From contig NZ_CP020562.1 of NCBI RefSeq assembly GCF_002082565.1, positions 3,968,001 to 4,032,000 of the forward strand: a DNA stretch of 64,000 bases, in the 5' to 3' direction. The position numbers were made by a program, and so were the translations under genes. The DNA comes from Halomonas sp. GT. GTDB lineage: Bacteria > Pseudomonadota > Gammaproteobacteria > Pseudomonadales > Halomonadaceae. Below are positions 8,407 through 11,171 of the stretch, piece after piece; the first letter of the stretch is position 1, and each line of letters begins with the position of its first letter. The notes under the pieces are model-generated. The model saw only the letters and a program-made list of their open reading frames with translations, was not told where the DNA came from and searched no databases.

Positions 8407-9408
<1,002 letters not shown>

Positions 9409-9512
9409 GGCATTTCTCCTGGCTCTGGATAGATGATCAGCATAGGCAATTTGCCTATTGTCTGCCTAAACGTCAGAAGAGGTATTCACCGAGATCAAAG
9501 AAAGATGCCGCT

Positions 9513-9644
9513 AAAAGGAGTAAAGCCGCTCCAAGCGGGAGCGGCAAAAGACCGTGACTAGCAAGGAAAGAGGAACAATGACAGGAAACTGGCGCTGATT
9601 TTTGAAATAGCGTCGTGGTTGCCAATCTTTCAGCAAACACGGGC
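9513..9644 (-). ncRNA. Array copy 5 of the small RNA, with a diverged pairing region
   Basis: The 5' half matches the other copies, but the pairing region reads TTGTTCCTCTTTCCTTGCTAG instead of TGGTTTCTCCCTCTCATTGC. It stays pyrimidine-rich. The terminator loop is enlarged (CGCTT) and the T-run weakened (TTTACTCCTTTT). This copy is the most distal from the promoter and could have a different target set or be decaying. Confidence 0.45.
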
Positions 9645-9649
9645 ACTAG

Positions 9650-9779
9650 AAAAAAGAAAGCCGCTCCAAGGGAGCGGCAAAAGACCGTGACTAGCAATGA
9701 GAGGGAGAAACTATGACAGGAAACTGGCGCTGATTTTTGAAATAGCGTCGTGGTTGCCAATCTTTCAGCAAACACGGGC
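9650..9779 (-). ncRNA. Array copy 4 of the small RNA
   Basis: It matches copies 2 and 3 except for TAGTTTCTCCC in place of TGGTTTCTCCC at the 5' side of the pairing region. Hairpin and TTTCTTTTTT run are intact. No promoter of its own is seen. Confidence 0.48.
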
Positions 9780-9784
9780 ACTAG

Positions 9785-9914
9785 AGAAAAGAAAGCCGCT
9801 CCAAGGGAGCGGCAAAAGACCGTGACTAGCAATGAGAGGGAGAAACCATGACAGGAAACTGGCGCTGATTTTTGAAATAGCGTCGTGGTTGCCAATCTTT
9901 CAGCAAACACGGGC
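9785..9914 (-). ncRNA. Array copy 3 of the small RNA
   Basis: It is nearly identical to copy 2 through the pairing region and hairpin; the T-run is slightly altered (TTTCTTTTCT). No promoter of its own is seen. Confidence 0.48.
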
Positions 9915-9919
9915 ACTAG

Positions 9920-10050
9920 AAAAAAAGAAAGCCGCTCCAAGGGAGCGGCAAAAGACCGTGACTAGCAATGAGAGGGAGAAACCATGACAGGAAACTGGCG
10001 CTGATTTTTGAAATAGCGTCGTGGTTGCCAATCTTTCAGCAAACACGGGC
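9920..10050 (-). ncRNA. Array copy 2 of the small RNA
   Basis: This copy repeats copy 1 from GTTTG-TGA-GTTGGCAACCACGAC to the terminator, with ~11 extra bases (around CTATTTCAAAAATC) before the pairing region. The pairing region GGTTTCTCCCTCTCATTGCTAG is identical to copy 1. No separate promoter or Fur box is visible in front of it, so it depends on read-through or on processing of a longer transcript. Confidence 0.5.
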
Positions 10051-10055
10051 ACTAG

Positions 10056-10174
10056 AAAAAAGAAAGCCGCTCCAAGGGAGCGGCAAAAGACCGTGACTAG
10101 CAATGAGAGGGAGAAACCATGACAGGAAACTGGCGGTTTCTGTCGTGGTTGCCAACGTCTCATCAAACGCTGAC
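10056..10174 (-). ncRNA. Promoter-proximal Fur-controlled small RNA (RyhB/PrrF-like candidate), copy 1
   Basis: The predicted transcript is ~119 nt, from about 10174 to the T-run after the hairpin at 10084-10066. The hairpin is a perfect 8-bp GC-rich stem with loop CTT, followed by TTTCTTTTTT. The middle carries a C/U-rich stretch (GGTTTCTCCCTCTC) that is anti-Shine-Dalgarno in character, followed by CATTGCTAG. CTCTCATTGCT resembles the RyhB core CTCACATTGCT as I remember it. Size, Fur operator and terminator match iron-responsive small RNAs. No expression evidence is available, and the family name is an analogy, not a homology claim. Confidence 0.62.
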
Positions 10175-10180
10175 AATCAC

Positions 10181-10209
10181 AATATAATCATTCTCATTTA
10201 CCCCGTCAA
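10181..10209 (-). promoter_or_regulatory. Sigma70 promoter of the small-RNA array
   Basis: On the minus strand TTGACG (10209-10204) and TATATT (10186-10181) are separated by exactly 17 bp, close to consensus. Transcription should start near 10174. The promoter sequence is not repeated within the array; only the part downstream of the predicted start is. Confidence 0.75.
10182..10196 (-). promoter_or_regulatory. Fur-box-like operator overlapping the -10 element
   Basis: TGAGAATGATTATAT matches the 7-1-7 Fur consensus TGATAATnATTATCA at 11 of 14 defined positions. It covers the spacer and -10 element of the array promoter, where Fur-Fe2+ would block RNA polymerase. This predicts transcription only under iron limitation. 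Confidence 0.6.
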
Positions 10210-10256: not shown

Positions 10257-11171
10257 CTAGCCCACTAACTGCAACCAGACGGGCAACGTCAGCATCGCTA
10301 ACAGCGTCTGGCCGGTAATAATTGCCGCCATAAGCTCTGCATCACCTCCCAACTGCCGAGCAAGAATGTAAGCAGATGTGGCGGTAGGCAGCGCTGCAAA
10401 CAGCAACGCCACATCACGACTGATAGGGTCCAGCCCCACCAGCCACGCTAATAACAGCACCACCGCAGGCATTAACAACAGCTTGATGCTATTCGTCGCT
10501 ATCACGCCACGATCCAGCCGTAACAGTGCTGCAGGGCGCAGCGCCACTCCCACGGCAATGAGCCCTAGCGGCAGCGCCGCACCACCCAATAGCCCTACTG
10601 TATCCTTGCTCCAACCGGGCAAGCCAACACCCGAAAGATTGAGCCCGATACCTGCTAGGCAGGACAAAATCAGTGGATTTTTAGCCAGTGCGAGGGCACT
10701 TTGGCCAAGGCTTCCACTGCCCAGCGTACCTGCCGCGACAAAGCTTGCGACACACATTACGTTCACCACCGGTACCATGAGTGCCACCGCCACAGCGGCG
10801 GTAGTCGCCCCCATGCTGCCATGTAGCGCCGCGGCTCCCGCGACGCCCACGTAGGTGTTAAAGCGAACGGCACCTTGGAACACCGACGTGAACGCCGCAG
10901 GCGTTAAGCCAAGGTAACCACGACAGCGCCATAACAACAGACCCAAAACCCCCATAGTGCCGAGCAATACCAACGCGATGCGTCCAACCGGCACTTGGCT
11001 GACATCAGCAGTAGCCAGCGTACCTATCAGCATTGCTGGAAATAGCACAAAGTAGATCAGACGCTCCATTTGCGGCCAGAACGTAGCACTTGGCCAACGG
11101 CCATAGCCAATGGCAGCGCCCAGCAAAATCAATAAAAACAGTGGCCCAAGTGCGCCAGTAATGCTCTCCAT
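10257..11171 (-). CDS. AEC-family (auxin efflux carrier-type) transporter
   Basis: This inner-membrane transporter has 304 aa and about ten hydrophobic helices. It starts with ITGALGPLFLLILLGAAIGY and has the family feature RFNTYVGVAGAAALHG plus a mid-protein charge-poor linker. LFAALPTATSAYILARQLGGDAELMAAIITGQTLLA near the C-terminus is highly typical of bacterial AEC/MDC-type permeases. Substrates in bacteria are usually malate, malonate or similar anions; none can be assigned here. Its stop lies just upstream of the array promoter. Confidence 0.85.
   Translation of the reverse strand: MESITGALGPLFLLILLGAAIGYGRWPSATFWPQMERLIYFVLFPAMLIGTLATADVSQVPVGRIALVLLGTMGVLGLLLWRCRGYLGLTPAAFTSVFQGAVRFNTYVGVAGAAALHGSMGATTAAVAVALMVPVVNVMCVASFVAAGTLGSGSLGQSALALAKNPLILSCLAGIGLNLSGVGLPGWSKDTVGLLGGAALPLGLIAVGVALRPAALLRLDRGVIATNSIKLLLMPAVVLLLAWLVGLDPISRDVALLFAALPTATSAYILARQLGGDAELMAAIITGQTLLAMLTLPVWLQLVG

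Follow-up and report, generated by a model that had tools for sequence, protein, structure and literature searches.

A five-unit array of small RNA (sRNA) genes on the minus strand of a Halomonas genome raises the question as to what the units beyond the first do: they could be transcribed from the one promoter in front of the array, or they could be silent products of its history. The original prediction saw five copies of an iron-responsive RNA of the RyhB/PrrF type behind a single Fur-controlled promoter. To address this question, we examined the array itself, its relationship to known RNAs, its counterparts in related genomes and the differences between its first and its distal copies.

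Anatomy of the array

Between positions 9513 and 10174 of the window (the whole stretch of DNA analysed, 64,000 nucleotides), the minus strand carries five tandem sRNA units, and one promoter lies in front of the first (Table 1). The units are direct repeats with start-to-start steps of 135, 135, 136 and 124 bp, and TRF reports the array at 9522-10135 with a period of 135, 4.5 copies, 97% matches and a score of 1145. The predicted array of five units of ~135 bp is therefore real, except that unit 1 belongs to a shorter class, with the 124-bp step and a 5' part different from that of units 2-5. An assembly artefact, which the prediction had allowed for, is unlikely: the assembly is a single contig of 4.16 Mb, the array's copies are not identical, and comparable arrays occur in six other genomes. 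A search of the same genome with unit 4 returned these five copies and three weak matches (16-28 bases, E 0.26 or worse).

Table 1 Features of the array and its neighbours, in window coordinates
Feature	Position	Strand	Remarks
Sigma-70-type promoter TTGACG-17-TATATT	10181..10209	-	10/12 to consensus; no other Fur-type promoter in the array
Fur-like box TGAGAATGATTATAT over the -10	10182..10196	-	11/14 scored positions; predicted from sequence
Unit 1	10056..10174	-	Complete PrrF-like RNA: two 5' hairpins, single-stranded core, terminator; putative start
Unit 1 core TCTCCCTCTCATTGCTAGTCACGGTC	10089..10114	-	Nearly invariant in the 42-sequence alignment A1
Unit 1 terminator hairpin, tail TTTCTTTTTT	10066..10084	-	From terminator scan
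Unit 2	9921..10055	-	No Fur promoter; intact core 9954-9979; terminator 9931-9949
Unit 3	9785..9920	-	No Fur promoter; intact core 9818-9843; terminator 9795-9813, tail TTTCTTTTCT
Unit 4	9650..9784	-	No Fur promoter; intact core 9683-9708; terminator 9660-9678
Unit 5	9515..9649	-	No Fur promoter; altered core CCTCTTTCCTTGCTAGTCACGGTC at 9550-9573; hairpin 9525-9545
Upstream neighbour, 304-aa membrane transport protein (Mem_trans, PF03547)	10257..11171	-	
Downstream co-directional neighbour, 333-aa D-isomer-specific 2-hydroxyacid dehydrogenase (PF00389, PF02826)	8407..9408	-	

A perfect GC hairpin with a T-run had been claimed for every unit. Four units have perfect 8-pair hairpins with T-rich tails, and the U tract behind the fifth hairpin is interrupted (TTTACTCCTTTT). 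The number of hits in a terminator scan of the array is not above that in shuffled sequences (4 observed vs 3.2 expected), so the case for terminators rests on the perfection of the hairpins, their repetition and their conservation in the genus. Unit 1 folds at -43.5 kcal/mol (z -5.29; 0/200 shuffles equally good), and two internal stretches are less stable (z -2.12 and -2.56). Unit 4 has a single change (CATAG) ahead of its core; the core of unit 5 reads CCTCTTTCCTTGC in place of TCTCCCTCTCATTGC, and this unit scores 78.6 bits with the covariance model R1 described below vs 152.5 bits for unit 1. Within 9408-9545, the co-directional 2-hydroxyacid dehydrogenase gene begins ~100 bases beyond the last hairpin with its broken U tract, and iron-dependent read-through into this gene is possible.

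The predicted promoter with a Fur-like 15-mer over its -10 was found in front of unit 1. Fur boxes were scored at 14 positions of a 7-1-7 consensus; chance matches ahead of units 2-5 score at most 8/14 in that scan, and at most 9/14 in other genomes. The Fur-box promoter that marks PrrF is thus predicted for unit 1 and absent ahead of units 2-5, in agreement with the proposal that only the transcribed part was multiplied.

Relationship to PrrF

At the gathering threshold, Rfam gave no match in the whole 64-kb window. At E<=10, PrrF leads the matches. Its alignment covers the Fur promoter together with unit 1, scores 45.7 bits (E 2e-06), short of the curated RF00444 cut-off of 90, and places the -35, Fur box, core and terminator in the right register. 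Its span of 1-150 carries little weight, as every match, chance ones included, is listed over the whole model. Two further PrrF matches fall on distal units (20.8 and 19.1 bits). RyhB and NrrF are absent among the 12 Rfam matches at E<=10, and ylbH, ncS54, isrL and similar matches, below their own cut-offs, were taken as chance. The proposed RyhB/PrrF type with a Fur-like box is upheld by homology, and can be narrowed to a diverged relative of PrrF.

The locus is matched at the DNA level in all 82 genus genomes searched. When whole genomes were scanned with PrrF, 43 of the 82 gave a match at E<=0.1 (best 5.9e-07), and such a match is absent from the other 39 under the stricter filters of the genome-wide search; none of the 82 genomes, and none of 14 loci including L113, gave a PrrF match over the cut-off of 90. 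To describe the RNA on its own terms, 42 copies were aligned (A1; likeness limit 0.93, with distal array units, G052 and G076 left out). The A1 fold has two 5' hairpins and a terminator, with 98.7% of cells paired and 9/23 pairs changed on both sides, and between hairpin 2 and the terminator lies the unpaired, nearly invariant core. On four of five measures, none of 500 shuffles equals this structure, and on the fifth 42/500 do; the test is favoured by the derivation of the structure from the same alignment. Variants also exist in the genus: L083 (G045) is a 99-base form that lacks hairpin 2 and keeps the Fur-like box, hairpin 1, core and terminator, and in four genomes (L091, L088, L089, L090) the core region has insertions with a second GCTA-containing piece, giving a longer RNA.

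The covariance search of Rfam and other Halomonas genomes that had been suggested as a check thus leaves PrrF below its cut-off, and extends the locus widely: R1, built from A1, matches at E<=0.01 in 261/275 family genomes and 23/24 genera. Among 293 genomes drawn from the order, R1 matches in 26 (12 of them from the same family) and is absent in 267; matches at L120, L121 and L122 had no recognisable core on reading and are probably chance, so that 26 is an upper figure. Re-scoring six order-level R1 loci (two from the same family) with the PrrF model gave best matches of 35.6 to 71.3 bits (L113 71.3, L118 68.0, L119 65.9, L108 60.4, L111 47.2, L104 35.6), and bridging sequences from intermediate genera connect the core type CTCCTCATCAGGCTAATCACGG with the Halomonas core. 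Taken together, the PrrF match, the family-wide R1 matches and the meeting of R1 with PrrF-like loci in the order point to a diverged PrrF-type RNA that the Rfam cut-off misses. We conclude that the locus shares common descent with PrrF, though outside the curated RF00444 boundary; since the cut-off is not reached, we name it a PrrF relative and do not file it as an RF00444 member. Taken alone, homology together with the Fur promoter is highly probable.

RyhB, NrrF and ArrF are iron-responsive RNAs to which the present RNA is likened by analogy. The likeness to PrrF1/PrrF2 is closer and comprises the Fur box over the promoter, a core ending in GCTARTCACGGT, two 5' hairpins, a terminator and the tandem arrangement. 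The Halomonas core differs from that of the PrrF model (CTCCCTCTCATTGCTAG vs CTCCTCATCAGGCTAA), and five units share one promoter, whereas excerpts of a Pseudomonas aeruginosa study (PMC2851614) and of a review (PMC4211561) describe tandem prrF1 and prrF2 copies with separate promoters. NrrF and ArrF are also named in the excerpt of PMC2851614.

Copies and promoters in the genus and beyond

A census of the genus gave 122 copies in 82 genomes. A single copy is present in 53 genomes, while in 19 others two or three copies are neighbours and the extra ones bear promoters by score, and G026 has two copies on different contigs; matches in G052 and G076 lie at contig ends and are outside the copy count, and extra R1 matches in G059 (weak, E 0.009), G066 (weak, E 0.0048) and G068 were left out of the copies. 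Seven genomes have arrays whose extra copies either have no Fur promoter (six genomes) or a decayed one (G054). The window genome, G000, has five copies, G002 and G043 have four each, G078, G080 and G054 three each, and G064 two; counts in drafts are lower bounds, because draft assemblies can collapse repeats. Neighbouring copies at L062, L061 and L065 lie ~1.3 kb apart and are not in direct tandem. A search for the exact 19-base array pattern in named genomes found five stretches, three of them real arrays (Vreelandella alkaliphila, V. zhaodongensis and V. venusta); those in V. olivaria and a MAG have no core and are due to chance.

The heptamer ATGAGAA occurs at the same place in 63/81 first copies of the genus, 10 more are one base off, and 8 lack the exact heptamer. 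A promoter model was built from 63 first copies, whose own scores run from 40.3 to 55.7 bits, and it separates the two kinds of extra copy: in the 19 tandem genomes the 21 extra copies score 30.6 to 54.7 bits, whereas scores in the six array genomes lie between -43.5 and -51.6 bits for all 15 distal copies. The two extra copies of G054 score -0.8 and 13.0 bits, indicative of a decayed promoter, and none of 1000 shuffles is as high. In G002 and G043 the linkers are equalled by 282 to 319 of 1000 shuffles, so a reading as decayed promoters is unsupported there; for the remaining distal units of the six array genomes the figure is 25 to 86/1000.

Beyond the genus, multi-copy genomes (17 from other genera, plus G066) offer 40 places, of which 31 were read. 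Twenty-eight were read as loci: the best Fur-box score lies at -14 to -18 in 16, nine have a similar box there by eye with a lower score, and three (L167, L168, L182) have none there. Three further places were read by position, with a Fur-like box in two and none in the third (G273, 3523156). No promoterless array was established among these 31 of the 40 places. A five-copy counterpart exists at order level in L119 (G523), where five tandem PrrF-like copies with the same core (matches from 1171 to 2461, ~277-302 bp apart) score 57.5 to 65.9 bits with the PrrF model; it differs from the window array in having one Fur-like box per copy, each matching 10 to 12 of the 14 positions.

Array history and constraint on the distal copies

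An upstream frame with the same motif as the array's transporter neighbour is present in 74/82 genus genomes, and a tree of this gene places the six array genomes in one well-supported group of ten, together with the single-copy genomes G003, G037, G038 and G051, and places G054 elsewhere. Promoterless or promoter-decayed arrays thus occur on at least two branches. The array label requires two changes relative to the 17 tandem-promoter genomes on the tree; this count omits the four single-copy genomes, and further gains or losses within the group are therefore possible. Unit 1 and distal units of the same genome share terminator variants in G000, G002, G043 and G078, and not in G064, a pattern suggestive of recombination between copies. 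The variant core of window unit 5 recurs in unit 4 of G002, unit 2 of G064 and both distal units of G078. The core is fully intact in 8/15 distal units, has a single substitution in unit 4 of G043 and a 3-base insertion in unit 2 of G080. We infer that promoter-bearing neighbours came first, that the second promoter was then lost, and that hybrid units and multiplication followed.

Distal copies are clearly less constrained than first copies. Differences between the six array genomes (G054 left out) amount to 0/510 cells of the core in first copies and 412/3115 in distal copies, with 9/465 and 699/2821 in the 5' arm, 0/345 and 201/3094 in hairpin 2, 14/372 and 159/2232 in the terminator stem, and 10/150 and 92/910 in the U tract; the cells are not independent, and recombination confuses the comparison. 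The divergence of the distal cores fits a weak or absent function of these copies.

Target searches

PrrF represses mRNAs of iron-containing proteins (sodB, sdh). With the core alone, pairing at the starts of sodB (-19.0 kcal/mol) and sdhC (-23.9 kcal/mol) does not stand out from that at 65 starts from the window (mean -20.1, sd 4.1); whole-RNA duplex energies were implausibly low and were discarded. The reverse complement of the core, allowing up to three mismatches, occurs at 16 places in the same genome (four in the array and 12 others) vs three for a backwards control. Two of the 12 coincide with what could be the start of a long gene: in L137 the frame has 325 aa and its ATG lies 20 bases past the first matched base, and in L140 a 177-aa frame has its ATG within the match. 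The complementarity searches of this genome and of the sodB and sdhC starts gave no supported target.

Discussion

Homology to PrrF, the promoter architecture and the absence of Fur promoters from distal units were computed directly. The explanation that we favour, with roughly an even chance of being correct, is that a PrrF gene of the Halomonas group was multiplied without its promoter and is read through from the single Fur promoter. Unit 1 would be the complete gene, in which a promoter repressed by Fur drives an RNA of ~115-119 nt; a second copy would have lost its own promoter and so joined the same transcription unit, and recombination between copies would have made, and multiplied, hybrid units consisting of the distal 5' part, the consensus core and a terminator. 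Under iron shortage, RNA polymerase would start at about 10174, the majority of transcripts would stop at the first terminator, and read-through would add RNAs of lower abundance, ~254, ~390, ~525 and ~660 nt in size. The parallel would be PrrH of P. aeruginosa, which an excerpt of PMC2851614 attributes to read-through of the first terminator; the anatomy of the array is compatible with such an RNA. The intact cores in many distal units, the occurrence of such arrays on at least two branches and the PrrH precedent favour read-through, and whether units beyond the first are in fact read through seems to us an evenly balanced matter. We infer Fur repression, read-through and target repression, and any dosage effect would belong to the same reading. 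The high dosage and the ladder of 1- to 5-unit RNAs proposed originally are hypothetical: each unit closes with a terminator-like hairpin, and constraint on the distal copies is relaxed. It is unlikely, in our view, that the array goes further and produces, from its one Fur promoter, PrrF-like RNAs in a graded series of one to five cores, in proportions set by read-through at the successive terminators, such that RNAs with more than one core hold several mRNAs at once and the altered last core has targets of its own.

A serious contender, with perhaps one chance in three, is that only unit 1 works and that units 2-5 are untranscribed leftovers of unequal crossing-over, homogenised by recombination and decaying from the far end. 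The Fur promoter is absent from all 15 distal copies of the six genomes, a terminator hairpin stands behind unit 1, and distal cores are far more variable than first cores; moreover, the last core is altered in G000, G002, G064 and G078, the last hairpin or its tail is damaged in G000, G002 and G078, and the shared terminator variants (G064 excepted) are as expected from recombination. Against this, eight distal cores are fully intact, though recombination with unit 1 could restore them, promoterless or promoter-decayed arrays are found on at least two branches, and the variant core common to four genomes is not randomly decayed. A single long precursor cut by RNase into units, with all five copies feeding one pool, is improbable. 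The single promoter and the near-identical units would suit it, and there is a precedent in CcsR1-4 of Rhodobacter sphaeroides, relatives of the 'cuckoo' RNAs. An excerpt of PMC10253847 describes CcsR1-4 as four homologous sRNAs in an operon with ccaF1, with an RpoHI/RpoHII promoter and RNase E processing. Both have homologous sRNAs in series behind one promoter, a layout predicted here from the absence of the Fur promoter from the distal copies of all six genomes. However, according to the same excerpt the four copies of CcsR1-4 share a single Rho-independent terminator, which closes the operon at its 3' end, whereas each of the five units here has a terminator-like hairpin, and a long precursor would need to pass every one of them. 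CcsR1-4 also qualifies the original claim that no five-copy relative with one shared promoter had been described: a four-copy set with one promoter is on record (PMC10253847, excerpt), and L119 has five PrrF-like copies in tandem, though with a separate box for each.

Two further explanations carry little weight. It is very doubtful that every distal unit has a weak promoter of its own, giving a short RNA of core and terminator. A TTGGCA-16-AAAAAT site in the 5' part matches 9/12 consensus positions in each of units 2-5, and the promoter scan found 6 promoter-like sites in the array region vs 1.0 expected; but four of these are one site repeated, with a poor -10 and no Fur box, and the second hexamer reads AAAGAT or AAAGAC in distal units of the group's five other genomes, and unit 1 does not have it. 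A coding role of the repeats, whether for a repetitive protein (there are open minus-strand frames of 88 and 155 aa) or for a small plus-strand peptide, can be set aside almost entirely. Two of the four steps (135, 135) preserve the frame, and some minus-strand frame is open throughout in 87/122 genus copies (plus strand 9/122), yet each minus-strand frame taken singly is open in at most 42% of the 122 copies, the lengths of 84 first copies (per contig) spread evenly over the three remainders (29, 28, 27), and conservation tracks the hairpins and the core.

In the open-licence papers that we searched, we met neither a PrrF-type RNA native to Halomonas nor a promoterless PrrF array. Excerpts of PMC12164125, PMC13101641 and PMC13414033 concern PrrF1 as an engineered scaffold, and that of PMC12096840 names PrrF for P. 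aeruginosa only. Tandem PrrF genes and sRNA sets with one promoter are known; what is unusual here is their combination, a PrrF-type RNA multiplied without its promoter, which we did not find in these papers. More broadly, the results extend PrrF-type iron regulation to nearly the whole Halomonas family (261/275 genomes), where the Rfam cut-off reports 0/82 in the genus. Promoter-bearing single copies and tandems, decayed promoters and promoterless arrays of two to five units form a natural series, well suited to asking what duplication of an sRNA brings: dosage, read-through RNAs or nothing.
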